From assembly GCA_033398695.1 (NCBI GenBank), contig CM065803.1, positions 44,569,501 through 44,633,500 on the forward strand: a stretch of DNA of 64,000 nucleotides. Reading direction: 5' to 3'. The notes beneath the pieces were generated by a model. It did not search any database. It saw only the letters and a program-made list of their open reading frames with translations, and was not told where the DNA came from. Below, piece after piece: positions 14,758 through 60,416 of the stretch; position 1 is the first letter of the stretch; each line of letters starts with the position of its first letter. Both the position numbers and the translations under genes were made by a program. This DNA comes from Orobanche coerulescens. Its lineage: Eukaryota > Streptophyta > Magnoliopsida > Lamiales > Orobanchaceae.

Positions 14758-16731
14758 TGTTGGGATTCGGTGCCTAAAAACGAAGGCCCAGCGGAAGCGG
14801 TAAAACAAAAATTAATTCGATCCGAATCCCTACGAGGATCGATCGAGCTACGTATATACGAATATGTAAACGAAAAACAAGAGATATAGAAACTCACCCT
14901 TGTAGTCCGTTGATTAGATGGATAACCTTCTCTTGAGCTATTCCCCAAGCTCTTGAACGATCCAACGCCGAAAGCACCGCGTCTCTACTTGCCACGCGCC
15001 AGAGAAACGACCGGAACGACAATCACCTTGCTATCCTCCGAGGATATGGCTAGAGCTAAGTGATAAAGCTTTTATTACTACACTCTAAGTGTATAATATA
15101 TCTCTCAATAATTTCTCTCAATTTTTCTCCAAGAAAAAATGAAGAAGTGAATGAAGAAGATGAAGATGAGTTGGAGAAAAAAAACTTTTTCTCTCTCTTT
15201 TCTCTCTATGTCTCACGTATGATGCCAAGAATTGTTGTGAGGATGAGAGATCAAAGTCATCTTTATATTCTTATTCAACCCACAAAAATCAAACCATATC
15301 ACATGTGAGATTCCCCCATATAATGTATATTATGCTTGTCCCCTCAACACATTAGATTCCAAAACCATGATGGGGACAAGTCAATACACACACATGGTTA
15401 TAAGTGGGGGGCAGCCCATGCTAGAAAACGGACGAGTTCGGTTCGTTTCGGACTCCCGAGAGTCCAAACAGATAAACTCATATTCCGTTCCGATGTATTT
15501 GTGTCGTTTAATTAATCCAATTAATTAAACATATAAAATACAAAATAACATAATTAATTTCTCCAAGAAATAATTATATTCGTGAATTAAATTAATCACC
15601 CAGTAATATATTTAATTCATTAGGCCATAAATTAATTTATCCAATAAATTAATTTAGACATCCAATGTCCCAAATTAGATATCCAATATCTAATATTCAT
15701 AATGAGAGAATTAGCTTTATTCATTCCGTCGTCAATCCTATTGCGCGACTCGGTAGGTCCGTCTCAGTCAGCAATGGGAGGAACCAAAGAGTAGTAGCAC
15801 CACCTAGCCAGCCTGGCGGCCTACACTGTACCCCAACTGAGAACGAATGATTGGGATCATTCAAGAACCATTCTGTCGTGAATACCAGTATACGTATAAA
15901 CCCTTCTTTCAAATGTCCCGATCAAGTTATAGGGTCACGGTCAGTCAAACCCTATCTGTTCTTGACGCTATGCATGCGTTAATGCAAATCGAGATCATCG
16001 AGCTGTCGTGTATCTAATACAACTAGCTCCAATGCTTTGGCCAAAGACTTATGATCTCATCTGCCAATAACCGCATAGGACATATAACCCGCTCACTAAC
16101 GGGAGAAAGAATTCTATCTTGGTATTCAGTAGGACCTGCCACTTGCCCGCCAAGATGCACGTCGAGGTTGACCCCCGCCTTCCGGTTTACAGGGTCGAAC
16201 TACTCTAATGAAAATCTTGACGTCACAAGCACATTCCTACTAAATCCTCAAGTCGAAGGTTCACGAATACCTATCACAACCTTTCGATTCCGTCATTGAC
16301 TGTCCCGGAGTGAAATCCGTGTGACAAATCGAGGGTGAGTCGGTTCGAGTATACTAATCCAATTAGCATACCTATAAAGTTTGCTCCCACTAACCATTAG
16401 TGTTCGACAGACACTCTCCATGTCAAAGAACACGTCATATAAGTCTTCACATAAACTTAAAGCCCAGTCAAGTTTCATCGACTTGCGAACGATTAAGTAT
16501 TTGAGCTATAAACCTTTCCAGTGCCGACCCCCTTATCCAATAAGGAGTGGAACTTTTTGCTCTCAAATACACGGACTAGTTTCTATATGTATATTTACGA
16601 GTTAGGAATGCCAGTAACTACCAGTAAATAAAGAAACATCCATTTCCTTATATTAGTGATTTACATAATTACAAGTACAATGCCCTCACTCAATCATCCT
16701 CTGAGTGGCATTCGAGGGCATACTCCCATCA
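14758..16731 (-). repeat. Copia dimer LTR a (3'-most)
   Basis: On the plus strand it runs from TGTTGGGATTCGG to TACTCCCATCA. On the element strand the start is TGATGGGAG, as in LTR b and the plus-strand array, whereas LTR c starts TGTTGGGAG. A GAAGAAG/GATGAAG-rich stretch lies at 15135-15180. A TATA-like AATATAAAG on the minus strand lies near 15260. Confidence 0.92.
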
Positions 16732-17838
16732 ATCTCCCACTTGCACTAAATGCCACACACTATGGTATCTAATACCCATGTTCTCCAGATGACGCTCTAA
16801 GCTAATCTGAGAAAGTGGCTTGGTCAGTGGATCAGCGACGTAGTCGGTTGACTCTACTCTATGCAGCACAATGTATCTCTTTGCGAACAAATGCTCTTAC
16901 GAGATGATACTCTCTCTCAATATGTTTGGTACTGTTGTGAAACCTCGGCTCCTAGGCCTGTGCTACAGCTCTGGCAGCGCAGCACAAGGTGTCACGTAAA
17001 GTTTACCCAGTAACTTCTAAATTCTTCCTTTGGAGGCTTCCGAGGCCGCTTTATACTCAGCCTAATAGGTGGAATTAGCAGTCGCGCTATACTTGGCACG
17101 ATGCCAAGATACTGCTCTTACATTAAGAGTAAATGTAGCCAGAAGTAGACATATAATCGTCTTTCTGTCCTTGGAAGTCCAATACAGTGAATCCCAGCAC
17201 ATTCTGTTCTCCACCACCATATATAAGAATCAGATCTCTTAGTACATTTAAAGTACTTGAGAACATTCTTTACGGCGGTCTAATGTTCCCTGACTGGGTT
17301 ATCCCGAAACCTACTTACCACGCTTCCAGCATGCGCAATGTCAGGTCTTGTACACAATAAAGTATATGTAAGGCTACCCAATGCCGAAGCATATGGTATA
17401 TAACTCATTTCCTTTCATTGTTCCTCACTATGAGGAAACATCTTCAAGGTGAGTTTTATTCCATGTCGCATCAGAAGGAACCCTCTTCAAGATCTAATCT
17501 ATATAGAGGGCTTGGGAAAAACTTATCATTCTCTTCGATCTATCCCAGTAGAATCGAATCCCAAGAATATAGGTTTCTTCTCCCAAGTCTTTCATGGAGA
17601 AATTACTCGAAAGCCAAGCTTTCCCAGAACTGAGCATTCCCACATCATTTCCTATTAGTAGAATGTCATCTACATATAGTACTAAGGATGCGATCTAGCT
17701 CCCAATAACCCTCTTGTATACACAATGTTCCTCTTCATTTTGTACGAAGTCAAAATCTTTGACTGCCTTGTCAAAACGAATGTCCCAACTACATGAAGAC
17801 TGCTACAGTGTATTTCATGGAGTCTACATCCACCATTG
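16732..17838 (-). pseudogene. Dimer unit 1: reverse transcriptase/RNase H remnant
   Basis: About 407 bp present in element G (63511-63917) are missing here, at a join near 17812. This removes most of the N-terminal RT including the first catalytic Asp region. A one-base loss just upstream has also put a stop before it. Downstream, the YVDD box (near 17670) and RNase H stretches remain recognisable in shifting frames, up to the purine tract next to LTR a. Not translatable as an enzyme. Confidence 0.85.
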
Positions 17839-19332
17839 CTAGGTCATTGGTCGTGGGTCGATCTCTTGTTTATCACTTGGAACCTCGAGGAAACCCAGTT
17901 CCTCCAAGTGCATAAAACTATACCTCTCAGGTAATGGAGACACCCTACTTGACCTACGAGGTGGTTGTACTTGTGTTTCAGAAGGTTTGGTTCCAGTTTC
18001 TTGCACAGGTGTCTCCTGAGGAGTTTCATTATATTCTTCTAAAGAAATACTTCTACCTGCTCCGACTTCCTGAATGAACTCATCTTCCAGGAAGTGTGCT
18101 TGTAAAGCAACAATGATCCTTCGATCTTCAGGCATGTAGAATAGATATCCCATCGTCCCAGACGGGAATCCAATGAAACGTCCCTTCGCAGACCTAGCTT
18201 CCAACTTTTCCACCTTAGTCTTCTTGACATAGGTGGGACATCCCCAAATCCTAATATGATTAAGACTTGGTTTCCTTCCCTCCCACATCTCATGTGGAGT
18301 TTTAGGAACGGATTTGGAAGGACATCTGTTTAAGATATAAGCGGCAGTCAGGAGTGCATACCCCCACAGGTAAATTGGTAAGTCAGTATAGCCCAGCATG
18401 GAACGGACCATGTTTAACAAGGTCCGGTTCCTTCTTTCTAACACACCATTTAACTGAGGGATACCTGGAGGTGTTAGTTGTGAAACTATTCCATGTTTCT
18501 TAAGGAACTCGTCAAACTCCGTACTCATATACTCGCCACCTCGGTCCGACCGAAGTGCTTTGATATGATTTCCAGTTTGTTTCTCGACTAGGGCCTTGAA
18601 TTCCTGGAATTTCTCAAAGGCCTCGGATTTATGTTTCATTAAGTATACATAACCATACCTAGTATGGTCATCTGTAAACGTAATGAAATATTGATATCTG
18701 TCACGTGCTGCTTCCAAAGCACCACAAACGTTAGTATGGATTAATCCCATTTTATCAGCGGCTCTTTCAAAAGTCCCTGTGAAGGGGGACTTAGTCATTT
18801 TGCCTTTAAGGCAAGATTCACAAGTAGGAAAGGGATCTGATCCCAATGGACCCATAAGTCCATCTTTTTCCATCTTGTAAACCTTGGTCTGACCAACATG
18901 ACCAAGTCTAAGATGCCATTTTAAAATTCGATTGGTTTCATCCCTACCACGTTTTCTAGTCATAGTATTCACAACTACTTTGTTGCTGAGATTTAGATGA
19001 TACAATCCATTCAACAATGTAGCAGTACCCACTAGTTTATTTCTAAGATAAATTTTGCAGGAACCATCACCAATGAAAAATGAAAAACCTTTTCGGTCCA
19101 TGACCGGAATGGATACAATGTTTTTGTGCCCCTTGGCCAAAACAAGTACATCTTCTAAAGTCAAAACAAAGCCGGATTCTAAACCCAAAAGAAGTGATCC
19201 TATGTCGGTCGCCTCGACACTATGCCCGCTTCCGACTGTGATCATAACTTCTCCAGCTCCAAGCTTCCTACTTTGTTCCAGATCCTGATTTACGGTACAA
19301 ATATGAGAACTAGCACCGAATCCAAGATTCAA
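17839..19332 (-). pseudogene. Dimer unit 1: protease end and integrase
   Basis: An open frame of 497 codons. It starts at a degenerated protease site (the family's LDSGASSHIC is NLGFGASSHIC here). It continues through the integrase zinc region (WHLRLGHV..CESC), the core, and the IWGCPTYVKK and GRFIGF motifs to the Pro-rich end. The first of the three catalytic acidic residues is changed: codon 18730-18732 gives LIHTNVCG, where unit 2 has LIHTDVCG. The other two (LRSDRGGEY and NGVLERRN) are present. Despite its length the integrase should be inactive. Confidence 0.85.
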
Positions 19333-20203
19333 GAAGTAGAAAATACGATAGAGAACAATTTGTTTCCAAAACTAAAAGTTACGTACGAAGTGCCATGAAG
19401 AATCGGACAATCTCTAGCCCGGGCCGACTCACCGCACTTGAGACAAGCATCCTTCTTCTTCTTGTTCTTTGGAACCATTGGGGCCTTGCCCTTACCCTTA
19501 AGGTCCTTAACTTGTGGTCCAGTTTGCTTCTTGGTCTTTTTCTTCTTGTTCTTAGACCTCCGAGGTCCAGAAGAAATCACAGAGCAGACTCATTCATCCG
19601 CGGAGTCTTCATCTGTGACTGAGCGGTCACAAGTTTTTTCATTAGCCCAGCTAAATTGCATGCAATCTCATTGCAGTTGAAGTTCATAACAAACTGTGAG
19701 AAGGAATCAGGGAGAGACTGTAGGATAAGGTCGGTTTGGAGAGACGTATCCATTTTAAAATCAAGAGCCTCTAATCTCTCGATCATGGATATCATTTTGA
19801 GGACGTGTTCCCCAACCTTCTCACCTTCCTTCATCCTTGCACCGAACAGTTGCTTGGATATCTCATATCTAGCAGTTCTGCTGTGCTCACCATAAAGCTC
19901 GGTTAAGTGAGATAGAATCTGCCTAGCAGAAGTCATTTTCTCATGAGCTCTCTGAAGCTCATTAGACATGGAAGCCATCATATAAGCATGAACTTTGACG
20001 TCATCCTTAACCCACTTTTCGTGGTTTTCAATCTCTTCCTGATTGGCTCGGGCCCGCACAGGAGGCGCCGGAATGTCGTTCTCCAAGACGTATCCCAGTG
20101 CCTCTATACTGAGGACAATCATCAGATTGCGGATCCAATCCACAAAGTTAGGTCGCATTAAGGTGTTCTTTTCGAGTAGAATTGCGAGTGGATTCATTGT
20201 CAT
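19329..20203 (-). pseudogene. Dimer unit 1: gag with zinc knuckle (frameshifted)
   Basis: Start ATG at 20203 (MTMNPLAILL). The copia-type gag domain follows (FVDWIRNLMIVL, KMTSARQILSHLTELYG, FMNFNCNEIACNLAGL-like end). Two extra bases near 19615 compared with unit 2 shift the frame. The knuckle part is then read from 19580 (KKKDACLKCGESARARDCP). There the CCHC spacing is damaged: unit 2 has CGELGHWARDC. The plus-strand unit I shares the same two-base expansion. Confidence 0.84.
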
Positions 20204-21926
20204 ATTGAGAGTTATGTCTGCATTAAGTACGACAGATTAATTAGTGACTCGTTATATTATGATCTGAGTATAGAATTAAGGTCTTTTCTATTCTTGTTAC
20301 TCAGCTCCCACTATTTTTATCGGAATAACACACTCCCATGTGAAATCCGGAAGTATCGTCGCTCTACTTCATAGTGGTGATTGAGTTCTTTATAAATCTT
20401 AATAGAGGGCAACCGAACAGGTTTCTAGTCTATTAATTTTCATAAAGTGGTGTCCAACACCAACCCATCTAATGGATGATTTGATCTTCTTTTTCCCCTT
20501 GTTCACTCCCCTCAACCTATACGGTTTCTATGGTTCGTGAACAAGTTACGTTTATACCATCGATGCAAATCAGTTTCACAATTGAATCTTATCCGGCAAC
20601 CTATCAGGTTTCTAGGGATAAAATTTGCTCCAACCGAAGGCATCCAATGCGCTCCCGGTAATTTATCCATCCTCCCCGAACGACTACCCCGATAACTCGG
20701 AAGCATAGCACATCCGGTTTGGATTTCAATTTCCCGAAAGCTCGATGAAGGGAAGGAAAACCTTGAAACCTTATTAACTTAATAATTTGTCGTTGGAGAA
20801 TTTTCGCGATTAATGTTACACTTTGCACATTAATCATTTAAGCGCGTTTGTGGCATTCATACAATATGAAACAACCATTCACAACCTAGTTGCTACCAAC
20901 ATGTGGTTCATGGACCGTTCCTAGAAAACAAAAACTTCGTAATCTAATAACAAGTCTTCGTCTTGAATCTTCGTCTTCTCGAAACGGATCTTCCTCCGGT
21001 CTTCGTCATTACATATAAATTTTACATCGAAAATTGCATCCTAGATACAAACATTTCTAGTAACATAAATAGGCTCAAAACGGCCTTTACAACCCAATTG
21101 AATAAAACGAACGATTCAAAACTAAGTCCACGAACCACATCCCCATTCAAAAGCATTCATCCAATAAATACTATATAAATGAAAAGCATAGAGGTACATT
21201 GATCTAATCAACAATACGAACCGATCCAATCGATTCACACAATCGGTAATATGATAACGTTCAAAATAATTCGGTCGACCATAAATATTCCAATTAATCA
21301 AATTTCCCTTATAAAATGAAATACTATAAATCATTTTAATCATATTAAATCCAATTTAACATGTGGGAGATTAATTTTCAAGAATACACGAAAAATCGAA
21401 ATGGGTGAAATCGCCAAAGATGACCGAAGTCACCCTCGGCTGCCGGAGTCGCTCGCATAGCCGAGTCACGCTCGGAATATGCCGCCAGACACGACCGAGT
21501 CACCAGACACGGTCGGTCCGCACTGCGATTGGCCAGATCGCGCACACGACCGAGTCACCCAGGACACAGTCGAGTCTACCTGGCAGTGACTTGGCCACAC
21601 TGCCGGACACGACCGAGTCACGCAGGACACGGTCGAGTCACTCTCGGCCAGATAACCCTTTTTGTCCAAAAAATCGTCCGACGACGATTCGGGGCTAGAT
21701 TTTCGACCGGATATCCAATATCAATATTTTCCGACTTTCATATCTTCAATATAAATCATATTTCCCAGAAATTTAAGATTTATATTTAGACATAAACTTA
21801 CGGAAAAATATAACTACAAGGAACGTAAAACATGTACCACGATTATGACTAAAATGATTCCAAATCATTCACCATCTAATCGAGCATTCCAAATGCCAAT
21901 ATCGTATATACGATCGCAAGACCTAT
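20204..21926 (-). other. Dimer unit 1: long 5' leader
   Basis: 1.7 kb between the primer site and the gag start, unusually long for copia. Short frames of 60-75 codons recur at the same place in each copy but resemble no known protein, and their conservation is explained by recent copying. It contains the GC-rich array listed at 21415-21660. Confidence 0.6.
21415..21660. repeat. GC-rich GACACGACCGAGTCAC array in the unit 1 leader
   Basis: Repeated GACACGACCGAGTCAC / GACACGGTCGAGTC motifs, spaced about 25-35 bp, stand in otherwise AT-rich leader sequence. Counterparts are at 28605-28860 (unit 2) and 56458-56705 (unit I), with different numbers and order of motifs, so the array evolves faster than its flanks. 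Confidence 0.85.
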
Positions 21927-21938
21927 GCTCCGATACCA
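21927..21938 (-). other. Primer-binding site of dimer unit 1 (initiator tRNA-Met type)
   Basis: Minus strand TGGTATCGGAGC, one base from LTR b. This matches the usual plant copia site TGGTATCAGAGC except for one base. The same sequence follows LTR c (29134-29145) and the plus-strand LTR (56173-56184). Confidence 0.88.
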
Positions 21939-21939
21939 C

Positions 21940-23916
21940 TGTTGGGATTCGGTGCCTAAAAACGAAGGCCCAGCGGAAGCGGTAAAACGAAAATTAATTC
22001 GATCCGAATCCCTACGAGGATCGATCGAGCTACGTATATACGAATATGTTAACGAAAAACAAGATATATAGAAACTCACCCTTGTAGTCCGTTGATTAGA
22101 TGGATAACCTTCTCTTGAACTATTCCCCAAGCTCTTGAACGATCCAACGCCGAAAGCACCGCGTCTCTACTTGCCACGCGCCGGAGAAACGACTGGAACG
22201 ACAATCACCTTGCTATCCTCCGAGGATACGGCTAGAGCTAAGTGATGAAGCTTTTATTACTACACTCTAAGTGTATAATATATCTCTCAATAATTTCTCT
22301 CAATTTTTCTCCAAGAAAAAATGAAGAAGAAGTGAATGAAGAAGATGAAGATGAGTTGGAGAAAAAAAAACTTTTTCTCTCTCTTTTCTCTCTATGTCTC
22401 ACGTATGATGCCAAGAATTGTTGTGAGGATGAGAGATCAAAGTCATCTTTATATTCTTATTCAACCCACAAAAATCAAACCTTATCACATGTGAGATTCC
22501 CCCATATAATGTATATGATGCTTGTCCCCTCAACACATGATATTCCAAAACCATGATGGGGACAAGTCAATACACACACATGTTATAAGTGGGGGGCAGC
22601 CCATGCTAGAAAACGGACGAGTTCGGTTCGTTTCAGACTCCCGAGAGTCCAAACAGATAAACTCATATTCCGTTCCGATGTATTTGTGTCGTTTAATTAA
22701 TCCAATTAATTAAACATATAAAATACAAAATAACATAATTAATTTCTCCAAGAAATAATTATATTCGTGAATTAAATTAATCACCCAGTAATATATTTAA
22801 TTCATTAGGTCGTAAATTAATTTATCCGATAAATAAATTTAGACATCCAATGTCCCAAATTAGATATCCAATATCTAATATTCATAATGAGAGAATTAGC
22901 TTTATTCATTCCGTCGTCAATCCTATTGCGCGACTCGGTAGGTCCGTCTCAGTCAGCAATGGGAGGAACCAAAGAGTAGTAGCACCACCTAGCCAGCCTA
23001 GCGGCCTAGACTGTACCCCAACTGAGAACGAATGAGTGGGATCATTCAAGAACCATTCTGTCGTGAATACCATTATGCGTATAAACCCTTCTTTCAAATG
23101 TCCCGATCAAGTTATAGGGTCACGGTCAATCAAACCCTATCTGTTCTTGACGCTATGCATGCGTTAATGCAAATCGAGATCATCGAGTTGTCGTGTATCT
23201 AATACAACTAGCTCCAATGCTTTGGCCAAAGACTTATGATCTCATCTGCCAATAACCGCATAGGACATATAACCCGCTCACTAACGGGAGAAAGAATTCT
23301 ATCTTGGTATTCAGTAGGACTTGCTACTTACCCGTCAAGATGCACGTCGAGGTTAACCCCCGCCTTTCGGTTTACAGGGTCGAACTACTCTAATGAAAAT
23401 CTTGACGTCACAAGCACATTCCTACTAAATCCTCAAGTTGAAGGTTCACGAATACCTATCACAACCTTTCGATTCCGTCATTGACTGTCCCGGAGTGAAA
23501 TCCGTGTGACGAATCGAGGGTGAGTCGGTTCGAGTATACTAATCCAATTAGCATACCTATAACATGTGCTCCCACTAACCATTAGTGTTCGACATACACT
23601 CTCCATGTCAAAGAACACGTCATACAAGTCTTCACATAAACTTAAAGCCCAGTCAAGTTTCATCGACTTGCGAACGATTAAGTATTTGAGCTATAAACCT
23701 TTCCAGTGCCGACCCCCTTATCCAATAAAGAGTGGAACGTTTTGCTCTCAAATACACGGACTAGTTTCTATATGTATATTTACGAGTTAGGAATGCCAGT
23801 AACTACCAGTAAATAAAGAAACATCCATTGCCTTATATTAGTGATTTACATAATTACATGTACAATGCCCTCACTCAATCATCCTCTGAGTGGCATTCGA
23901 GGGCATACTCCCATCA
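21940..23916 (-). repeat. Copia dimer LTR b (shared middle LTR)
   Basis: 1977 bp. It serves as 3' LTR of unit 2 and 5' LTR of unit 1. It has variants not found in LTR a or c: CTTGCTACTTACCCGTCAAG near 23325 and GAATGAGTGGGATC near 23030. The plus-strand LTR at 54195-56171 has both. Confidence 0.93.
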
Positions 23917-25023
23917 ATCTCCCACTTGCACTCAATGCCACACACTATGGTATCTAATACCCATGTTCTCCAGATCACGCTCTAAGCTAATCTGAGAAAG
24001 TGGCTTGGTCAGTGGATCAGCGACGTAGTCGGCTGACTCTACTCTATGCAGCACAATGTATCTCTTTGCGAACAAATGCTCTTACGAGATGATACTCTCT
24101 CTCAATATGTTTGGTACTGTTGTGAAACCTCGGCTCCTAGGCCTGTGCTACAGCTCTGGCAGCGCAGCACAAGGTGTCATGTGAAGTTTACCCAGTAACT
24201 TCTAAATTCTTCCTTTGCAGGCTTCCGAGGCCGCTTTATACTCAGCCTAATAGGTGGAATTAGCAGTCGCGCTATACTTGGCACTATGCCAAGATACTGC
24301 TCTTACATTAAGAGTAAATGTAGCCAGAAGTAGACATATAATCGTCTTTCTGTCCTTGGAAGTCCAATACAGTGAATCCCACCACATTCTGTTCTCCACC
24401 TCCATATATAAGAATCAGATCTCTTAGTACATTTAAAGTACTTGAGAACATTCTTTACGGCGGTCTAATGTTCCCTGACTGGGTTAGCCCGAAACCTACT
24501 TACCACGCTTCCAGCATGCGCAATGTCAGGTCTTGTACACAATAAAGTATATGTAAGGCTACCCAATGCCGAAGCATATGGTATATAACTCATTTCCTTT
24601 CATTGTTCCTCACTATGAGGAAACATCTTCAAGGTGAGTTTTATTCCATGTCGCATCGGAAGGAACCCTCTTCAAGATCTAATCTATATAGAGGGCTTGG
24701 GAAAAACTTATCATTCTCTTCGATCTATCCCGGTAGAATCGAATCCCAAGAATATAGGTTTTTTCTCCCAAGTCATTCATGGAGAAATTACTCGAAAGCC
24801 AAGCTTTCCCAGAACTGAGCATTCCCACATCATTTCCTATTAGTAGAATGTCATATACATATAGTACTAAGGATGCGATCTAGCTCCCACCAACCCTCTT
24901 ATATACACAATGTTCCTCTTCATTTAAATGCAAGTCAAAATCTTTGACTGCCTTGTCAAAACGAATGTCCCAACTACATGAAGACTGCTACAGTCTATTT
25001 CATGGAGTCTACATCCACCATTG
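23917..25023 (-). pseudogene. Dimer unit 2: reverse transcriptase/RNase H remnant
   Basis: Same RT deletion join as unit 1 (near 24997, CAGTCT joined to ATTTCATGGAGTC on the plus strand). YVDD-region and RNase H stretches remain but are broken by stops. The purine tract and LTR b follow on the minus strand. Confidence 0.84.
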
Positions 25024-26217
25024 CTAGGTCATTGGTCCTGGGTCGATCTCTTGTTTATCACTTGGAACCTCGAGGAAACCCAGTTCCTCCAAGTGCATAA
25101 AACTATACCTCTCAGGTAATAGAGACACCCTACTTGACCTACGAGGTGGTTGTACTTGTGTTTCAGAAGGTTCGGTTCCAGTTTCTTGCACAGGTGTCTC
25201 CTGAGGAGTTTCATTATATTCTTCTAAAGAAATACTTCTACCTGCTCCGCCTTCCTGAATGAACTCATCTTCCAAGAAGTGTGCTTGTAAAGCAACAATG
25301 ATCCTTCGATCTTCGGGCATGTAGAATAGATATCCCATCGTCCCAGACGGGAATCCAATGAAACGTCCCTTCGCAGACCTAGCTTCCAATTTTTCCACCT
25401 TAGTCTTCTTGACATAGGTGGGACATCCCCAAATCCTAATATGATTAAGACTTGGTTTCCTTCCCTACCACATCTCATGTGGAGTTTTAGGAACGGATTT
25501 GGAAGGACATCTGTTTAAGATATAAGCGGCAGTCAGGAGTGCATACCCCCACAGGTAAATTGGTAAGTCAATATAGCCCAGCATGGAATGGACCATGTTT
25601 AACAAGGTCCGGTTCCTTCTTTCTGACACACCATTTAACTGAGGGGTACCTGGAGGTGTTAGTTGTGAAACTATTTCATGTTCCTTAAGGAACTCGTCAA
25701 ACTCCGTACTCATATACTCGCCACCTCGGTCCGACCGAAGTGCTTTGATATGATTTCCAGTTTGTTTCTCGACTAGGGCCTTGAATTCCTGGAATTTCTC
25801 AAAGACCTCGGATTTATGTTTCATTAAGTATACATAACCATACCTAGTATGGTCATCTGTAAACGTAATGAAATACTGATATCCGTCACGTGCTGCTTCC
25901 AAAGCACCACAAACGTCAGTATGGATTAATCCCATTTTATCAACGGCTCTTTCAAAAGTCCCTGTAAAGGGGGACTTAGTCATTTTGCCTTTAAGGCAAG
26001 ATTCACAAGTAGGAAAGGGATCTGATCCCAATGGACCCATAAGTCCATCTTTTTCCATCTTGTAAACCTTGGTCTGAACAACATGACCAAGTCTAAGATG
26101 CCATTTCAAAACTCGATTGGTTTCATCCCTACCACGTTTTCTAGTCATAGTATTCACAACTACTTTGTTGCTGAGATTTAGATGATACAATCCATTCAAC
26201 AATGTAGCAGTACCCAC
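25024..26217 (-). pseudogene. Dimer unit 2: integrase (two pieces)
   Basis: The zinc region (LRLGHVVQTKVYK..CESC) and catalytic core, with all three acidic residues (LIHTDVCG with codon 25915-25917, LRSDRGGEY, NGVSERRNR), lie in 26217-25465. A stop near 25465 splits the IWGCPTYV region, and the C-terminal part is read from 25398. Unit-2 markers are HVVQTK, ERAVDK, KEHEIVSQ, EGGAGRS and GTEPSE; all recur in plus-strand unit H. Confidence 0.85.
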
Positions 26218-26277
26218 TAGTTTATTTCTAAAATAAATTTTGCAGGAACCATCACCAATGAAAAATGAAAAACCTTT

Positions 26278-33448: not shown

Positions 33449-33470
33449 TATTTATAAAGATATATTTATT

Positions 33471-33471
33471 A

Positions 33472-44660: not shown

Positions 44661-44675
44661 ATATCCCACTTGTAC

Positions 44676-47516: not shown

Positions 47517-47528
47517 TCCGATACCAAT

Positions 47529-48567: not shown

Positions 48568-48572
48568 ATGGT

Positions 48573-49399: not shown

Positions 49400-49620
49400 C
49401 CCATGGCCGTACCCCTTAGTATCGACCCCCAGAAATCCTGTCGAACGCTCCGGGTGGAATACCACTTCCGCGGCCGTACCCCTTAGTATCGACCCCCAGA
49501 CATCCCGTCGGACACTCCGGGTGGAAGTTCAATCACACACGCACCCAAGTCCACTTCCACGGCCGTACCCCTTAGTATCGACCCCCAGACATCCCGTCGG
49601 ACACTCCAGGTGGATGGAAT
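49400..49620. repeat. Three tandem GGCCGTACCCC repeats in the E LTR
   Basis: Units start at about 49404, 49469 and 49560, and are almost identical over 65 bp with a variable spacer. They sit on the R/U5 side, the same relative position as the long repeats in the B and F LTRs but unrelated in sequence. Confidence 0.87.
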
Positions 49621-50254
49621 ACAACTCACGCACCCGAAAATCACAGTTCATCATTCATTTCGAAAATCACAACATACTTAACGAAATGTAATACATGCAC
49701 TTGCCTTAAGTAAAACGAAACGAAGGAAACGATGAAGGAATAGGTTTCGGTCCGAACAATCCTCCCAAATCCGTTCCTAACACAATAATGGTATACACAA
49801 GTCTCAATAATGCGGAAAGGTAAGAATTAATCCTTATTCTACCCCTTGGAACGATTTGTCGGCCATGACTTGGGTATCGTCGACTATAAGTGACGAACAT
49901 TGGAAAACTTGAAGTTTAAAACCACAAATCAACAATAAAATGAAGGATTACAAGTACACGATCGAAGTCTAGCGATAACCCAGTGATAATTCGGACTAAA
50001 AGAGTCAAATCCCAAGAAATCCCCAAAATTCCCCCAAAATCTCAAAACAAGGGTTTTGGTAATTTTTACCTTGATTCGGATGGTGGAAAGTGTTAGGAAC
50101 TTGAAGAATTCACGCAAGGAGTGCCCGGTGGTAGTGAATGATGAACTTCAGTCGGAATCGGCCCTAACCCTCGTCTGGAATCGCTCAAAGCCGAGAAGGA
50201 TAAGAAATGATGGAAAAATGACGAAGTTGACTACTGCTGTCCTATTTATATTAA

Positions 50255-50560
50255 ACAGTCTTAGCGCACGCTACGCACAAGCATTAGAGCGCGCTAACGG
50301 GGCGTGGAAGAACAGTCTGCCTACTGTCCTCCAGTTAGCGTGCGCAAGCTGACATGGTTAGCGTGCGCTAATATTAGGAATTAGCGTGCGTTAACGCTGA
50401 ATTAGCGTGCGCTACAGTCCAAGATCTGAAACACCGAACCTCATTGTCCGGACATGAAATCGTTAGCGCACGCTACGGACCCCAGGTCAGCGTACGCTAA
50501 CCACACAGTGATAGCGCACGCAAGTAATTCCGGAGTAGCATGCGCTACTCGGGCGTGATT
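50255..50560. repeat. TTAGCGTGCGCTAA palindrome array upstream of the E TATA box
   Basis: About ten units, for example GTTAGCGTGCGCTAAT, AATTAGCGTGCGTTAAC, CGTTAGCGCACGCTAC and GTAGCATGCGCTAC. The consensus GTTAGCGTGCGCTAAC is palindromic apart from the centre. The first unit is within 10 bp of the TATA box. Confidence 0.92.
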
Positions 50561-51067
50561 GATCTTGCGCGATCTGCTGCCAACAGCACAAAAGTGTCGA
50601 AATGCGAAGCAAGATCAGAATCCGGAAACATAAACACGTAATAATCAAGATGACAAAGCTGAGCGTTGAAAGAGAATATAATCCCGATCACTGGAGAGTC
50701 CGAAATGAAGCAAATAAAGCGAAATTCCCCAAACTTATGAAAATTACAAAACGGCCCAAGTGCTAGAAAATCGCGGTACAACGTCGGATTAACAAACCGA
50801 AAGTTTCAACACGACCAACTCAACCATACAAACTTATACAAATCAAGAAACAACGAAAACGAACAAGTTTTACGAGAATCGAACGCACATGCGGCAAGAT
50901 ATAATTCAAGATGAAATTATGCAAAAACATCCTCGAAACTCGACTAGACGGAAAAACTCCAAGAACAAAATAGATTCAGAATTCCAAAAGCGATTGCTAA
51001 GCGAGTTGTCAAAGCAGACATACACCAAAAATAGAAATTACCGAAAATAGAAAATACGGATATTACA

Positions 51068-51395
51068 TTATCTCCCCCTAAAAATAAGTTTCGTCCCGAA
51101 ACTTACAACGCGAACAACTCGGGGTATCTCGACTGCATACTCTCTTCCGTCTCCCATGTGGCTTCCTCGGATCCATGTCTCGACCATTGAACTTTAACCA
51201 GAGGAATGGTTTTATGACGAAGTTGCTTCACCCGACGCTCTAAAATCTGAATCGGCCTCTCCTCGATGGTAATGTCGGGTCCCAACTCGATCTCTCCAAA
51301 ATCAATAATATGGCTAGGGTCCGATACGTAATTCCTAAGCTGGGAAACATGAAATACGTTATGAACGTGACTCAAAGACGGTGGCATCAACATAG
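51068..51395 (-). pseudogene. Element E integrase C-terminus with chromodomain-like end (truncated)
   Basis: The minus strand gives PPSLSHVHNVFHVSQLRNYV, IEERPIQILERRVKQLRHK and VQWSRHGSEEATWETEE, ending RYPELFAL at a stop (51103). This is the C-terminal integrase and chromodomain region typical of Tekay/Del-type chromoviruses. The frame is intact as far as it goes. Everything upstream is lost at the junction near 51396, where plus-strand copia sequence starts. Confidence 0.88.
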
Positions 51396-51408
51396 ATCCC
51401 CATGATGG
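51396..51408. other. Rearrangement junction between gypsy E and copia unit H
   Basis: Left of it is E integrase on the minus strand, right of it copia gag on the plus strand, joined in mid-gene in both partners. There is no LTR end and no target duplication, so this is a break-and-join and not an insertion. A few bases between the two (about 51396-51407) match neither closely. Confidence 0.75.
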
Positions 51409-51899
51409 AAACTGGACCACAAGTTAAGGACCTTAAGGGTAAGGGCAAGGCCCCAATGGTTCCAAAGAACAAGAAGAAGAAGGATGCTTGTCTCAAGTGC
51501 GGTGAGCTGGGCCACTGGGCTAGAGATTGTCCGATTCTTCATGGCACTTCAGGTACAGAACTTTTAGTTTTGGAAACAAATTGTTCTACTACTGTATTTT
51601 CTACTTCCTGGATACTGGATTCTGGTGCTAGTTCTCATATTTGTACCGTGAATCAGGATCTGGAACAAAGTAGGAAGCTTGGAGTGGAAGTTATGATCAC
51701 GGTCGGAAGCGGTCATAGTGTCGAGGCGACCTACATAGGATCACTTCTTTTGGGTTTAGAATCGCTTTGTTTTGACTTTAGAAGATGTACTTGTTTTACC
51801 CAAGGCACAAAAACATTGTATCCATTAGGTCATGGTGAAAAGGTTTTTCATTTTTCATTGGTGATGGTTCCTGCAAAATTTATTTTAGAAATAAACTAG
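51408..51899 (+). pseudogene. Right dimer unit H: gag zinc knuckle and protease
   Basis: It starts in the middle of gag (TGPQVKDLKGKGKAP). The CCHC knuckle CLKCGELGHWARDC and the protease start ILDSGASSHIC are intact. A small deletion near 51685 (GVEVMITV where relatives read GAGEVMITV) keeps the frame; a further change near 51765 shifts it. The last part to 51899 is out of frame. Confidence 0.82.
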
Positions 51900-52075
51900 T
51901 GGGTACTGCTACATTGTTGAATGGATTGTATCATCTAAATCTCAGCAACAAAGTAGTTGTGAATACTATGACTAGAAAACGTGGTAGGGATGAAACCAAT
52001 CGAGTTTTGAAATGGCATCTTAGACTTGGTCATGTTGTTCAGACCAAGGTTTACAAGATGTAAAAAGATGGACTT

Positions 52076-53080
52076 ATGGGTCCATTGGGATCAGATCCCT
52101 TTCCTACTTGTGAATCTTGCCTTAAAGGCAAAATGACTAAGTCCCCCTTTACAGGGACTTTTGAAAGAGCCGTTGATAAAATGGGATTAATCCATACTGA
52201 CGTTTGTGGTGCTTTGGAAGCAGCACGTGACGGATATCAGTATTTCATTACGTTTACAGATGACCATACTAGGTATGGTTATGTATACTTAATGAAACAT
52301 AAATCCGAGGTCTTTGAGAAATTCCAGGAATTCAAGGCCTTAGTCGAGAAACAAACTGGAAATCATATCAAAGCACTTCGGTCGGACCGAGGTGGCGAGT
52401 ATATGAGTACGGAGTTTGACGAGTTCCTTAAGGAACATGAAATTGTTTCACAACTAACACCTCCAGGTACCCCTCAGTTAAATGGTGTGTCAGAAAGAAG
52501 GAACCGGACCTTGTTAAACATGGTCCGTTCCATACTGGGCTATACTGACTTACCAATTTACCTGTGCGGGTATGCACTCCTGACTGCTGCTTATATCTTA
52601 AACAGATGTCCTTCCAAATCCATTCCTAAAACTCCACATGAGATGTGGGAGGGAAGGAAACCAAGTCTTAATCATATTAGGATTTGGGGATGTCCCATCT
52701 ATGTCAAGAAGACTAAGGTGGAAAAATTGGAAGCTAGGTCTGCGAAGGGACGTTTCATTGGATTCCCGTCTTGGACGATGGGATATCTATTCTACATGCC
52801 CGAAGATCGAAGGATCATTGTTGCTTTACAAGCACACTTCTTGGAAGATGAGTTCATTCAGGAAGGCGGAGCAGGTAGAAGTATTTCTTTAGAAGAATAT
52901 AATGAAACTCCTAAGGAGACACCTGTGCAAGAAACTGGAACCGAACCTTCTGAAACACAAGTACAACCACCTCGTAGGTCAAGTAGGGTGTCTCTATTAC
53001 CTGAGAGGTATAGTTTTATGCACTTGGAGGAACTGGGTTTCCTCGAGGTTCCAAGTGATAAACAAGAGATTGACCCATGA
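52076..53080 (+). pseudogene. Right dimer unit H: integrase
   Basis: 334 open codons. The zinc-region histidines lie just upstream (LRLGHVVQTKVYKM), cut off by a stop at 52060-52062. The catalytic residues are all present: LIHTDVCG (codon 52199-52201), LRSDRGGEY and NGVSERRNR. The unit-2 markers HVVQTK, ERAVDK, KEHEIVSQ, EGGAGRS and GTEPSE are all found here, so H is the plus-strand counterpart of unit 2. It ends at a TGA (53078-53080). Confidence 0.87.
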
Positions 53081-54194
53081 CCAATGACCTAGCAATGGTG
53101 GATGTAGACTCCATGAAATAGACTGTAGCAGTCTTCATGTAGTTGGGACATTCGTTTTGACAAGGCAGTCAAAGATTTTGACTTCGTACGAAATGAAGAG
53201 GAACATTGTGTATATAAGAGGGTTGGTGGGAGCTAGATCGCATCCTTAGTACTATATGTATATGACATTCTACTAATAGGAAATGATGTGGGAATGCTCA
53301 GTTCTGGGAAAGCTTGGCTTTCGAGTAATTTCTCCATGAAAGACTTGGGAGAAAAAACCTATATTCTTGGGATTCGATTCTACCGGGATAGATCGAAGAG
53401 AATGATAAGTTTTTCCCAAGCCCTCTATATAGATTAGATCTTGAAGAGGGTTCCTTCCGATGCGACATGGAATAAAACTCACCTTGAAGATGTTTCCTCA
53501 TAGTGAGGAACAATGAAAGGAAATGAGTTATATACCATATGCTTCGGCATTGGGTAGCCTTACATATACTTTATTGTGTACAAGACACGACATTGCGCAT
53601 CTTTGGGCGTGGTAAGTAGGTTTCGGGCTAACCCAGTCAGGGAACATTAGACCGCCGTAAAGAATGTTCTCAAGTACTTTAAATGTACTAAGGGATCTGA
53701 TTCTTATATATGGTGGTGGAGAACAGAATGTGGTGGGATTCACTGTATTGGACTTCCAAGGACAGAAAGACGATTATATGTCTACTTCTGGCTACATTTA
53801 CTCTTAATGTAAGAGCAGTATCTTGGCATAGTGCCAAGTATAGCGCGACTGCTAATTCCACCTATTAGGCTGAGTATAAAGCGGCCTCGGAATCCTCCAA
53901 AGGAAGAATTTAGAAGTTACTGGGTAAACTTCACGTGACACTTTGTCTTCTTGTTGCCCAGTACATGTGCCTAGGAGCCGAGGTTTCACAACAGTACCAA
54001 ACATATTGAGAGAGAGTATCATCTCGTAAGAGCATTTGTTCGCAAAGAGATACATTGTGTTGCATAGAGTAGAGTCAGCCGACTACGTCGCTGATCCACT
54101 GACCAAGCCACTTTCTCAGATTAGCTTAGAGCGTGATCTGGAGAGCATGGGTATTAGATACCATAGTGTGTGGCATTGAGTGCAAGTGGGAGAT
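53081..54194 (+). pseudogene. Right dimer unit H: RT (deleted) and RNase H remnant, polypurine tract
   Basis: The RT deletion join is identical to the other units (GGATGTAGACTCC followed by ATGAAATAGACTG at about 53100-53125). YVDD-like and RNase H pieces follow in broken frames. The purine tract GCAAGTGGGAGAT (54182-54194) adjoins the LTR. Confidence 0.84.
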
Positions 54195-56171
54195 TGATGG
54201 GAGTATGCCCTCGAATGCCACTCAGAGGATGATTGAGTGAGGGCATTGTACATGTAATTATGTAAATCACTAATATAAGGCAATGGATGTTTCTTTATTT
54301 ACTGGTAGTTACTGGCATTCCTAACTCGTAAATATACATATAGAAACTAGTCCGTGTATTTGAGAGCAAAACGTTCCACTCTTTATTGGATAAGGGGGTC
54401 GGCACTGGAAAGGTTTATAGCTCAAATACTTAATCGTTCGCAAGTCGATGAAACTTGACAGGGCTTTAAGTTTATGTGAAGACTTGTATGACGTGTTCTT
54501 TTACATGGAGAGTGTCTGTCGAACACTAATGGTTAGTGGGAGCACACGTTATAGGTATGCTAATTGGATTAGTATACTCGAACCGACTCACCCTCGATTC
54601 GTCACACGGATTTCACTCCGGGACAGTCAATGACGGAATCGAAAGGTTGTGATAGGTATTCGTGAACCTTCGACTTGAGGATTTAGTAGGAATGTGCTTG
54701 TGACGTCAAGATTTTCATTAGAGTAGTTCGACCCTGTAAACCGGAAGGCGGGGGTCAACCTCGACGTGCATCTTGACGGGTAAGTAGCAAGTCCTACTGA
54801 ATACCAAGATAGAATTATTTCTCCCATTAGTGAGCGGGTTATATGTCCTATGCGGTTATTGGCAGATGAGATCATAAGTCTTTGGCCAAAGCATTGGAGC
54901 TAGTTGTATTAGATACACGACAGCTCGATGATCTCGATTTGCATTAACGCATGCATAGCGTCAAGAACAGATAGGGTTTGATTGACCGTGACCCTATAAC
55001 TTGATCGGGACATTTGAAAGAAGGGTTTATACGTATACTGGTATTCACGACAGAATGGTTCTTGAATGATCCCACTCATTCGTTCTCAGTTGGGGTACAG
55101 TCTAGGCCGCCAGGCTGGCTAGGTGGTGCTACTACTCTTTGGTTCCTCCCATTGCTGACTGAGACGGACCTACCGAGTCGCGCAATAGGATTGAAGACGG
55201 AATGAATAAAGCTAATTCTCTCATTATGAATATTAGATATTGGATATCTAATTTGGGACATTGGATGTCTAAATTGATTTATCGGATAAATTAATTTACG
55301 GCCTAATGAATTAAATATATTATTGGGTGATTAATTTAATTCACGAATATAATTATTTCTTGGAGAAATTAATTATGTTATTTTGTATTTTATATGTTTA
55401 ATTAATTGGATTAATTAAACGACACAAATACATCGGAACGGAATATGAGTTTATCTGTTTGGACTCTCGGGAGTCCGAAACGAACCGAACTCGTCCGTTT
55501 TCTAGCATGGGCTGCCCCCCACTTATAACCATGTGTGTGTATTGACTTGTCCCCATCATGGTTTTGGAATATCATGTGTTGAGGGGACAAGCATCATATA
55601 CATTATATGGGGAATCTCACATGTGATAAGGTTTGATTTTTGTGGGTTGAATAAGAATATAAAGATGACTTTGATCTCTCATCCTCACAACAATTCTTGG
55701 CATCATACGTGAGACAGAGAGAGAAAAGAGAGAGAAAAAGTTTTTTTTTCTCCAACTCATCTTCATCTTCTTCATTCACTTCTTCTTCATTTTTTCTTGG
55801 AGAAAAATTGAGAGAAATTATTGAGAGATATATTATACACTTAGAGTGTAGTAATAAAAGCTTCATCACTTAGCTCTAGCCGTATCCTCAGAGGATAGCA
55901 AGGTGATTGTCGTTCCAGTCGTTTCTCCGGCGCGTGGCAAGTAGAGACGCGGTGCTTTCGGCGTTGGATCGTTCAAGAGGTTGGGGAATAGTTCAAGAGA
56001 AGGTTATCCATCTAATCAACGGACTACAAGGGTGAGTTTCTATATATCTTGTTTTTCGTTTACATATTCGTATATACGTAGCTCGATCGATCCTCGTAGG
56101 GATTCGGATCGAATTAATTTTCGTTTTACCGCTTCCGCTGGGCCTTCGTTTTTAGGCACCGAATCCCAACA
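54195..56171 (+). repeat. Right dimer middle LTR
   Basis: 1977 bp, TGATGGGAG to CCCAACA. It shares with LTR b, and not with a or c, the variants read on the minus strand as CTTGCTACTTACCCGTCAAG and GAATGAGTGGGATC. It is followed by a G and the primer site TGGTATCGGAGC (56173-56184), so it is at once 3' LTR of H and 5' LTR of I. Confidence 0.93.
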
Positions 56172-57909
56172 GTGGTATCGGAGCGTAGGTCTTGCGATCG
56201 TATATACGATATTGGCATTTGGAATGCTCGATTAGATGGTGAATGATTTGGAATCATTTTAGTCATAATCGTAGTACATGTTTTACGTTCCTTGTAGTTA
56301 TATTTTTCCGTAAGTTTATGTCTAAATATAAATCTTAAATTTCTGGGAAATATGATTTATATTGAAGATATGAAAGTCGGAAAATATTGATATTGGATAT
56401 CCGGTCGAAAATCTAGCCCTGAATCGTCGTCGGACGATTTTTTGGACAAAAAGGGTTATCTGGCCGAGAGTGACTCGACCGTGTCTGCGTGACTCGGTCG
56501 TGTCGGCATGTGGCCATGTCACTTCAGGTAGACTCGGCCGTGTCTGGGTGACTCGGTCGTGTCTGGCGATCTGGCCAAGTCATCGCGCCGGGCGGACCGG
56601 CCGTGTCTGGGTGACTCGGTCGTGTCTGGCGGCATATTCGGCGTGACTTCGGCTATGCCGAGCTTTGGCCAGGTGCCGAAGTGACTTCGGTCATCTTTGG
56701 CGATTTTCACCCATTTCGATTTTTTCGTGTATTCTTGAAAATTAATCTCCCACATGTTTAATTGGATTTAATATGATTAAAATGATTTATAGTATTTCAT
56801 TTTATAAGGGAAATTTGATTAATTGGAATATTTATGGTCGACCAAATTATTTTGAACGTTATCATATTACCGATTGTGTGAATCGATTGGATCGGTTCGT
56901 ATTGTTGATTATATCAATGTACCTCTATGCTTTTCATTTATATAGTATTTATTGGATGAATGCTTTTGAATGGGGATGTGGTTCGTGGACTTAGTTTTGA
57001 ATCGTTCGTTTTATTCAATTGGGTTGTAAAGGCCGTTTTGAGCCTATTTATTTTACTAGAAATGTTTGTATCTAGGATGCAATTTTCGATGTAAAATTTA
57101 TATGTAATGACGAAGACCGGAGGAAGATCCGTTTCGAGAAGACGAAGATTCAAGACGAAAACTTGTTATTAGATTACGAAGTTTTTGTTTTCTAGGAACG
57201 GTCCATGAACCACATGTTGGTAGCAACTAGGTTGTGAATGGTTGTTTCATATTGTATGAATGCCACAAACGCGCTTAACTGATTAATGTGCAAAGTGTAA
57301 CATTAATCGCGAAAATTCTCCAACGACAAATTATTAAGTTAATAAGGTTTCAAGGTTTTCCTTCCCTCCATCGAGCTTTCGGGAAATTGAAATCCAAACC
57401 GGATGTGTTATGCTTCCGAGTTATCGGGGTAGTCGTTCGGGGAGGAAGGATAAATTACCGGGAGCGCATTGGATGCCTTCGGTTGGAGCAAATTTTATCC
57501 CTAGAAACCTGATAGGTTGCCGGATAAGATTCAATTGTGGCGATTTGCGTCGATGGTATAAACGTAACTTGTTCACGAACCATAGAAACCGTATAGGTTG
57601 AGGGGAGTGAACAAGGGGAAAAAGAAGATCGAATCATCCATTAGATGGGTTGGTGTTGGACACCACTTTATGAAAATTAATAGACTAGAAACCTGTTCGG
57701 TTGCCCTCTATTAAGATTTATAAAGAACTCAATCACCACTATGAAGTAGAGCGACGATACTTCCGGATTTCACATGGGAGTGTGTTATTCCGATAAAAAT
57801 AGTGGGAGCTGAGTAACAAGAATAGAAAAGACCTTAATTCTATACTCAGATCATAATATAACGAGTCACTAATTAATTTGTCGTACTTAATGCAGACATA
57901 ACTCTCAAT
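56172..57909 (+). other. Right dimer unit I: primer site and 5' leader with GC-rich array
   Basis: Primer site at 56173-56184, then the leader as in units 1 and 2, with the GACTCGGTCGTGTC-type array at about 56458-56705 (the reverse strand of the motif in the left dimer). No supported reading frame. Confidence 0.78.
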
Positions 57910-58819
57910 ATGACAATGAATCCACTCGCAATTCTACTCGAAAAGAACACCTTAATGCGACCTAACTTTGTGGATTGGATCCGCAATCTGATGATTGTCC
58001 TCAGTATAGAGGCACTGGGATACGTCTTGGAGAACGACATTCCGGCGCCTCCTGTGCGGGCCCGAGCCAATCAGGAAGAGATTGAAAACCACGAAAAGTG
58101 GGTTAAGGATGACGTCAAAGTTCGTGCTTATATGATGGCTTCCATGTCTAATGAGCTTCAGAGAGCTCATGAGAAAATGACACGCTGGCGATTTTATCTC
58201 ACTTAACCGAGCTTTATGGTGAGCACAGCAGAACTGCTAGATATGAGATATCCAAGCAACTGTTCGGTGCAAGGATGAAGGAAGGTGAGAAGGTTGGGGA
58301 ACACGTCCTCAAAATGATATCCATGATCGAGAGATTGGAGGCTCTTGATTTTAAAATGGATACTTCTCTCCAAACCGACCTTATCCTACAGTCTCTCCCT
58401 GATTCCTTCTCACAGTTTGTTATGAACTTCAACTGCAATGAGATTGCATGCAATTTAGCTGGGCTAATGAAAAAACTTGTGACCGCTCAGTAACAGATGA
58501 AGACTCCGCGGATGAAGGAGTCTGTTCTGTGATTTCTTCTGGACCTTGGAGGTCTAAGAACAAGAAGAAAAAGACCAAGAAGCAAACTGGACCACAAGTT
58601 AAGGACCTTAAGGGTAAGGGCAAGGCCCCAATGGTTCCAAAGAACAAGAAGAAGAAGGATGCTTGTCTCAAGTGCGGTGGTGGGCCCTTTGGGCTAGAGA
58701 TTGTCCGATTCTTCATGGCACTTAGTCTGAGAACTTTTAGTTTTGGAAACAAATTGTTCTCTTGTATTTTCTACTTCTTGGATTTTGGATTAGTGCTAGT
58801 TCTCATATTTGTACCGTGA
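57910..58819 (+). pseudogene. Right dimer unit I: gag
   Basis: Start ATG at 57910. The gag domain has the unit-1 marker VLENDIPAPPVRARANQ. A frameshift lies near 58185 (after AHEKMT), with the correct frame resuming by 58275. The two-base expansion after KKLVTA, shared with unit 1, shifts the frame again near 58490, and the zinc knuckle (CLKCGG..) is damaged. Confidence 0.84.
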
Positions 58820-58825
58820 ATCGGG

Positions 58826-60067
58826 ATGCGGAACAAAGTAGGAAGCTTGGGTGGAGAAGTTATGATCACAGTCGGAAGCGGGCATAGTGTCGAGGCGACC
58901 GACATAGGATCACTTCTTTTGGGTTTAGAATCCGGCTTTGTTTTGACTTTAGAAGATATACTTGTTTTGCCCAAGGGGCACAAAAACATTGTATCCATTC
59001 CGGTCATGGACCGAAAAGGTTTTTCATTTTTCATTGGTGATGGTTCCTGCAAAATTTATTTTAGAAATAAACTAGTGGGTACTGCTACATTGTTGAATGG
59101 ATTGTATCATCTAAATCTCAGCAACAAAGTAGTTGTGAATACTATGACTAGAAAACGTGGTAGGGATGAAACCAATCGAGTTTTGAAATGGCATCTTAGA
59201 CTTGGTCATGTTGGTCAGACCAAGGTTTACAAGATGGAAAAAGATGGACTTATGGGTCCATTGGGATCAGATCCCTTTCCTACTTGTGAATCTTGCCTTA
59301 AAGGCAAAATGACTAAGTCCCCCTTCACAGGGACTTTTGAAAGAGCCGCTGATAAAATGGGATTAATCCATACTAACGTTTGTGGTGCTTTGGAAGCAGC
59401 ACGTGACGGATATCAATATTTCATTACGTTTACAGATGACCATACTAGGTCTGGTTATGTATACTTAATGAAACATAAATCCGAGGCCTTTGAGAAATTC
59501 CAGGAATTCAAGGCCCTTGTCGAGAAACAAACTGGAAATCATATCAAAGCACTTCGGTCGGACCGAGGTGGCGAGTATATGAGTACGGAGTTTGACGAGT
59601 TCCTTAAGGAACATGGAATAGTTTCACAACTAACACCTCCAGGTACCCCTCAGTTAAATGGTGTGTTAGAAAGAAGTAACCGGACCTTGTTAAACATGGT
59701 CCGTTCCATGCTGGGCTATACTGACTTACCAATTTACCTGTGGGGGTATGCACTCCTGACTGCCGCTTATATCTTAAACAGATGTCCTTCCAAATCCGTT
59801 CCTAAAACTCCACATGAGATGTGGGAGGGAAGGAAACCAAGTCTTAATCATATTAGGATTTGGGGATGTCCCACCTATGTCAAGAAGACTAAGGTGGAAA
59901 AGTTGGAAGCTAGGTCTGCGAAGGGACGTTTCATTGGATTCCCGTCTGGGACGATGGGATATCTATTCTACATGCTGAAGATCGAAGGATCATTGTTGCT
60001 TTACAAGCACACTTCCTGGAAGATGAGTTCATTCAGGAAGTCGGAGCAGGTAGAAGTATTTCTTTAG
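58826..60067 (+). pseudogene. Right dimer unit I: protease part and integrase
   Basis: 413 open codons from EVMITVGSGHSVEAT through the integrase core, frame-shifted near 59975 (after FYM) so that the last 30 codons are wrong. The first catalytic Asp is Asn (LIHTNVCG, codon 59375-59377), as in unit 1. The other two are in LRSDRGGEY and NGVLERSNR. ERAADK, EHGIVSQ and GVLER also point to unit 1. The Pro-rich tail is read in the next frame from about 60077. Confidence 0.86.
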
Positions 60068-60416
60068 AAGAATATAATGAAACTCCTCAGGAGACACCTG
60101 TGCAAGAAACTGGAACCAAACCTTCTGAAACACAAGTACAACCACCTCGTAGGTCAAGTAGGGTGTCTCCATTACCTGAGAGGTATAGTTTTATGCACTT
60201 GGAGGAACTGGGTTTCCTCGAGGTTCCAAGTGATAAACAAGAGATCGACCCACGACCAATGACCTAGCAATGGTGGATGTAGACTCCATGAAATAGACTG
60301 TAGCAGTCTTCATGTAGTTGGGACATTCGTTTTGACAAGGCAGTCAAAGATTTTGACTTCGTACAAAATGAAGAGGAATATTGTGTATACAAGAGGGTTA
60401 GTGGGAGCTAGATCGC
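60068..60416 (+). pseudogene. Right dimer unit I: start of the deleted RT, cut by element G
   Basis: The shared RT deletion join is at about 60277-60302. Sequence equivalent to the FVQNEEE..CVYK region follows and stops at GGGAGCTAGATCGC (60416), after which the LTR of G starts. The rest of I, if it exists, lies beyond G and the window. Confidence 0.84.

Follow-up and report, generated by a model that had tools for sequence, protein, structure and literature searches.

A defective copia dimer present twice, in opposite orientation, at one locus of Orobanche coerulescens: probable local copying at the DNA level

A stretch of the Orobanche coerulescens genome (assembly GCA_033398695.1, contig CM065803.1, positions 44,569,501-44,633,500 of the forward strand; 64,000 nucleotides, here called the window) carries the same defective copia dimer twice, in opposite orientation. 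The two arrays match unit by unit and in register. The history that we consider probable, at about 0.7, is that the reverse transcriptase (RT)-deleted dimer formed once and that at least 9 kb of it was then copied locally, inverted, at the DNA level. The left array (14758-31122) lies on the minus strand and reads, in the sense direction, LTR a, unit 2, LTR b, unit 1 and LTR c. The right array (51409-60416) lies on the plus strand in the order H, LTR R and I. About 20 kb, holding other elements, separates the two within the span 14758-60416. The features are as follows (window coordinates).

13323-14757, plus strand: left flank of the left array, probably the left part of a host gypsy-like LTR that starts further left; three ordered matches to the LTR at 38900-41569
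14758-16731, minus strand: LTR c, the 3′ LTR of the left array, with an exact LTR terminus at 14758
16732-21939, minus strand: internal region of unit 1, with gag (19577-20236), integrase (17839-19371) and an RT shortened by the common deletion (about 405 bp)
21940-23916, minus strand: LTR b, the shared middle LTR of the left array
23917-29146, minus strand: internal region of unit 2, with an RT deletion identical to that of unit 1
29147-31122, minus strand: LTR a, the 5′ LTR of the left array, with an exact LTR terminus at 31122
31123-31549, plus strand: right flank of the left array, probably the right part of the host LTR, being the 3′ end of a gypsy-like LTR and ending TGTTACA
48840-51408, minus strand: 3′ LTR of a gypsy element (about 48840-51067) and the terminal part of its internal region, with a chromodomain at 51106-51408; the junction with H is at 51408/51409
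51409-54194, plus strand: H, the 3′ part of a unit 2 copy, lacking the 5′ part and the 5′ LTR
54195-56171, plus strand: R, the middle LTR of the right array and sister of LTR b
56172-60416, plus strand: I, a unit 1 copy from its 5′ end to the insertion point of J
60417-64000, minus strand: J, a related copy inserted in I, with its LTR at 60417-62377 and the RT region kept; it runs off the window

One frame of unit 1 has a Retrotran_gag_2 domain, and the following frame has gag_pre-integrs, rve and SH3 domains. The remnant of RT is located 3′ of the integrase in the units, and gag and integrase upstream of RT is the copia order. The LTRs are 1.98 kb long and, judged from the junction sequences, of the TG...CA type, and the internal regions measure 5.2 kb. 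The sequence GTGGTATCGGAGC directly follows the LTR and may represent an initiator tRNA (tRNA-iMet) primer site. The units are assigned to an RT-deleted LTR retrotransposon of the Ty1/copia type. All four units share a single RT deletion junction, with about 405 bp missing relative to J, and their RT is incomplete; the dimer must therefore have been built from an element that was already defective. The deletion is delimited on its far side by positions 63918-63993, where the sequence of J again matches the units.

Self-BLAST of the window gave an inverted, in-register match of 97.8% over 9,056 columns, between 17690-26726 and 60416-51400. The out-of-register matches were lower, 96.5% for 24875-31124 against 60416-54193 and 96.8% for 14758-19534 against 56171-51400. 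The pairing of units was equally clear at individual sites. The internal regions offer 1,821 gap-free columns shared by the four units. These hold 24 two-against-two sites, every one of which groups H with unit 2 and I with unit 1, and the same 24 are obtained from 1,830 columns that include nine flank bases at the start of H. Among the LTRs (1,969 columns), 11 of 11 such sites support the pairing (b,R)(a,c). In the shared part, sites at which H is out of register number 9, versus 40 in register, and the corresponding figures for I are 14 and 36. When J is used as the outgroup for the 3′ part of the units, H shares the derived state with unit 2 at six sites and with unit 1 at one, and at four further sites a state common to units 1 and 2 is absent from H.

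Tree tests gave the same result. For the internal regions, AU tests rejected both other four-taxon topologies (p < 1e-40, a loss of 65.6 log-likelihood units), and for the LTRs they rejected the four tested trees that have no b+R clade (p < 0.001). The best LTR topology places c with b+R at weak support (64), and how a and c attach to the b+R clade is only weakly fixed. An earlier note, made from the letters of this DNA, had described the same defective dimer in both orientations, with unit 2 markers in H, unit 1 markers in I and variants of the middle LTR b in the LTR between them, and this description is borne out by the inverted match and the diagnostic sites. Ten peptide markers were checked; six occur in unit 2 and H only, and four in unit 1 and I only. 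The internal and LTR sites and the AU tests strongly support the claim of the note that the order unit 2-LTR b-unit 1 was already in place when one array was copied. The kind of tree that it named as contrary evidence, with H apart from unit 2 or I apart from unit 1, is among the topologies rejected within the window. A small correction concerns the start of H, which had been put at 51408 and is at 51409; positions 51400-51408 are flank.

Patchy gene conversion between units was considered and rejected, as the out-of-register sites are scattered, except for one run of five (columns 4224-4228). At these columns unit 1, H and I agree and unit 2 stands apart, and the run reads as a private change of unit 2, although conversion of H could be the alternative. 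A single long tract is a different matter. An independent element or array on the right could have been overwritten by gene conversion or break-induced replication from the left dimer, and such a tract would put all 24 + 11 two-against-two sites in register over 9 kb, as found. Inverted repeats 20 kb apart can recombine. However, the right array holds no recognised remnant of an older, different copy, and the left-right differences are spread along it, with some clusters, which makes overwriting an improbable origin, if the best placed of the alternatives.

The ends of the right array were inspected for traces of the copying event. H is fused at 51408/51409 to the final part of the internal region of a minus-strand gypsy element. 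The gypsy stretch beside H gave a Chromo domain match (1.3e-5, just above the cut-off) and a match to the last third of a Tf2-1-like SH3 domain (3.5e-5, below the cut-off), and its reading frame breaks off inside the integrase. The fusion looks like an illegitimate junction, and may be either a later deletion or the breakpoint of the copy itself. At the other end, the last base of I (60416) coincides exactly with the 3′ terminus of the LTR of J, indicating that I is interrupted rather than truncated and that the rest of I should lie past the window. Position 60416 is thus the insertion point of J and not the end of the array. The LTR of J is about 12% diverged from the array LTRs. J carries an RT frame of 343 aa that is open to the end of the window (RVT_2 match, 1.3e-69). 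In a protein search, the best 120 of 7,988 passing sequences (among 7,990 scored candidates) were 60-72% identical to this RT; the plant-named relatives among these 120 are dicots, most are nameless and one carries a bacterial name. Within the window, neither end of the right array shows any copied non-element flank; its 5′ LTR was not found there, and its 3′ LTR would lie past the window. How the right array was made is not apparent from the ends that can be seen.

The relative ages of the parts are more informative. With J as outgroup, LTRs a, b, c and R have 23, 10, 14 and 8 private derived sites, respectively, and b and R share nine, while each of the eight other site classes has 1 to 3 sites. 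LTRs a, b and c therefore form a near-star and diverged from about one time, b+R is the only supported clade, and b and R split later. LTR divergence was 41-52 over 1,971-1,973 columns. Units 1 and 2 differ at 149 of 5,202 columns when multi-base clusters are kept, somewhat above the LTR level, and by 116 substitutions in the 5,202 columns (2.2%) when clusters are removed, which equals the LTR divergence. In the 1,821 internal columns shared by all units, units 1 and 2 differ at 51 positions, compared with 27 for unit 2 and H (p = 0.008) and 32 for unit 1 and I (p = 0.045). These values place the split between the left and right arrays at 0.53 of the unit age (bootstrap 0.41-0.66), and a separate estimate from the LTRs agrees, at 0.50 of the age of LTR b (0.32-0.71). 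Given similar rates, the split occurred about halfway from the divergence of the dimer parts to the present; gene conversion between the inverted arrays could also have shortened the left-right distances.

Differences between units 1 and 2 inside two open frames fall on codon positions 1, 2 and 3 in the numbers 23, 20 and 20, and comprise 19 synonymous, 41 nonsynonymous and 3 stop changes. This is the pattern expected of neutral decay, and a non-autonomous family moving in trans could also produce it. The possibility that the units were separately active lineages under selection was set aside, as the codon positions give no sign of it; a non-autonomous family might escape selection anyway.

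Reverse transcription of a dimer remakes both outer LTRs as identical copies and leaves the middle LTR unchanged. The mark expected of a retrotransposed dimer, with outer LTRs identical at the time of copying and an older middle LTR, is absent from the left array: LTRs a and c differ at 46 of 1,971 columns versus 22 of 1,976 for b and R, about twofold (Fisher p = 0.003), a comparison that assumes similar substitution rates and in which private changes are more numerous in LTR a than in c (23 vs 14). If rates were similar, the left array predates the split and was not reverse-transcribed at or after it, and a single replicating master dimer did not give rise to both arrays as fresh copies. Most simply, the right array is a daughter of the left array and not its sister from such a master. 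The earlier note had offered two mechanisms, retrotransposition of a dimer as one unit or duplication and inversion of a segment; the balance tilts towards the second, the terminal LTRs of the left array being older than the left-right split.

The right array by itself might still have arisen from the left dimer by retrotransposition. In that case an RNA of about 14 kb, read through the middle LTR, would have been packaged and reverse-transcribed by the proteins of an intact relative and inserted 20 kb away, with later loss of the 5′ end and splitting by J. The int-LTR-int order is kept, as this would require, and tandem retrotransposition through weak termination is proposed in PMC11899658. 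A related copy with an open RVT_2 frame, J, lies next to the array; J interrupted I after insertion, and H may likewise have lost its 5′ end later. Against this, the copy would have landed just 20 kb from the source, RT is incomplete in the units, the right array shows neither a 5′ LTR nor a target duplication within the window, and the left array itself was not made in this way at the split. We regard this origin of the right array as unlikely, and give similarly little credence to the general case, in which transcription of a defective dimer runs on past its middle LTR and the RNA is reverse-transcribed in trans and integrates as a single 16-kb unit. A local DNA event is preferred because the copy lies so close to its source, a closeness that genome-wide insertion would not predict. 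A local inverted DNA copy explains the orientation, the distance and the kept order without a defective element having to package such a long read-through RNA.

The insertion site of the left array bears on how the dimer arose. No 5-bp target site duplication is present at the left array (sense flanks AAAAT and ATTTA), although both of its LTR termini are exact, and the preferred history does not account for this in full. Both flanks align colinearly, and in matching orientation, with a gypsy-like LTR on the minus strand that runs from about 41569 to beyond 38900. The left flank has three matches (E = 1e-42, 2e-7 and 3e-5), of which the closest stops 95 bp short of the array; the right flank matches at E = 5e-9, with weaker matches in addition. 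The same LTR also gave some weaker off-diagonal matches to the left-array flank. The end of the right flank further matches the terminus of the LTR at 48840 (1.6e-8), and the left flank has no match to that LTR (48840-51067) below E = 0.6. These LTRs are called gypsy from the chromodomain that adjoins one of the flank-matching LTRs, and from their termini, which we take to be typical of gypsy. The left array is probably nested in one gypsy LTR, as judged from these alignments, though the off-diagonal matches and the missing match of the left flank to the LTR at 48840 count against this reading. At this divergence, the target may have lost some sequence between the two flanks (about 160 bp at most), so that two nearby insertions joined by recombination are as possible as a single insertion expanded by LTR-LTR recombination. 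Recombination between two distant insertions, considered for the lack of a target duplication, is disfavoured, as the flanks are colinear in one gypsy-like LTR.

The same colinearity bears on a further scheme, in which unequal crossing-over produced a four-unit array and half of it was then inverted away. This would give the order twice without any flank being copied, but it is hard to reconcile with a left array that has exact LTR ends on both sides, between colinear parts of one gypsy-like LTR, and is very unlikely. An assembly artefact, with one array placed twice, is suggested by the length and roughly 98% identity of the arrays and by some differences that are tight multi-base clusters with indels of 1-6 bp, but is highly improbable given 22 + 57 + 84 in-register substitutions between the arrays and the ends of the right one, which has a gypsy junction of its own on one side and an exactly nested insertion on the other.

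The proposed sequence of events, with local copying at the DNA level, would begin with a copia element lacking about 405 bp of RT, which would have given rise, within a single gypsy LTR, to the dimer LTR-unit 2-LTR-unit 1-LTR. LTR-LTR recombination is the likely mechanism, acting on sister chromatids of one insertion or on two near-identical insertions close together; tandem insertion would be another possible route. The dimer would then have stayed in the chromosome while its parts, showing no sign of selection, gained private mutations. Roughly midway between then and now, a DNA-level event (for example template switching, break repair or a segmental duplication of local range) would have placed an inverted copy of at least 9 kb, including unit 2, LTR b and unit 1, about 20 kb from the source. 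On its 5′ side this copy now abuts the truncated gypsy element, and J later inserted in its 3′ side. The in-register relationship, the relative order of events (under similar rates), the RT deletion common to the units, the exact insertion of J and the gypsy junction are shown by the sequence, whereas the DNA-level route and the origin of the dimer by LTR recombination are inferred.

The left array has the L3I2 layout, LTR-int-LTR-int-LTR, in which the two units have the middle LTR in common. BARE1 belongs to the copia elements and has long LTRs. In barley, at least 4600 three-LTR structures of BARE1 are cited in PMC7215508. Tandem LTR retrotransposons that share internal LTRs are common in plants, according to PMC11899658, PMC7215508 and PMC4717578. 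In PMC11899658 (Morales-Diaz et al. 2025), the origin of plant tandems, by complex insertion or by recombination, is left open, and tandem transposition is named as a possibility. The left array resembles the tandems described there in having two internal regions, three LTRs and near-identical units, and perhaps a single insertion site; it differs from them in lacking a target duplication, in being of copia type with an RT deletion, and in that the ordered dimer occurs twice, inverted. The tandemly arrayed TRIMs and Cassandra arrays, as presented in PMC4717578 and PMC7215508, have the same L3I2 arrangement and shared LTR. They are small and without protein genes, whereas the LTRs and internal regions here are long and include gag and integrase. 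LTR recombination or template switching during reverse transcription is proposed for the origin of Cassandra arrays (PMC7215508).

A literature search, of narrow basis, found no report of an order-preserving second copy of a tandem, which is what this locus represents for a tandem LTR retrotransposon. If retrotransposition of the dimer were true, it would mean that tandem LTR retrotransposons can themselves replicate. For the left array, the LTR-age test argues against an origin by reverse transcription, and a few more kilobases of sequence could decide the case of the right array. The test is a general one: a reverse-transcribed dimer would have terminal LTRs younger than its middle LTR, whereas a copy made at the DNA level would not.

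The differences among the four internal regions of the copia arrays (units 1 and 2 of the left array, and their respective copies I and H in the right array) are partly concentrated in tight clusters, each with 3 to 11 substitutions and indels of 1–6 bp. These are found at about columns 300–570, 2030–2045, 2345–2880, 4224–4229, 4640–4646 and 4987–5012 of the internal alignment. The comparison of the middle LTRs of the two arrays (LTR b and R) showed zero tight multi-substitution clusters of this kind. The internal clusters may stem from mutations that arose together, from conversion over short tracts, from the way the leader's tandem repeat was aligned, or from sequencing error.

Other repeats lie around and between the arrays:

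2118–12804 (−), full-length gypsy element with domains, an LTR pair and a 5-bp duplication
32596–33231, 28-bp minisatellite, ~18 copies, between the left and right arrays
33448–33551, 104-bp AT repeat, between the arrays and 3′ of the minisatellite
43479–48839, older copy of the dimer's copia family, 81–85% identity
44968–48569, 3.6-kb element splitting the older copia copy, LTRs of ~505 bp

The gypsy element encodes gag, RT and integrase domains, is bounded by LTRs (~2123–2835 and ~12083–12799) with near 98% identity, and is flanked on both sides by the duplication GCGAG. It also carries a 54-bp minisatellite of about seven copies (6207–6587). A weak match between 1657–1767 and 51109–51000 suggests that this element and the copia dimer may both be nested in one outer gypsy LTR, parts of which flank the left array.

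The LTRs of the 3.6-kb element are 92.7% identical, and a gag domain was detected within it in the single frame scanned.

The AT repeat is, for the most part, self-complementary. Minisatellites and self-complementary AT repeats such as those separating the two arrays are prone to breaks.
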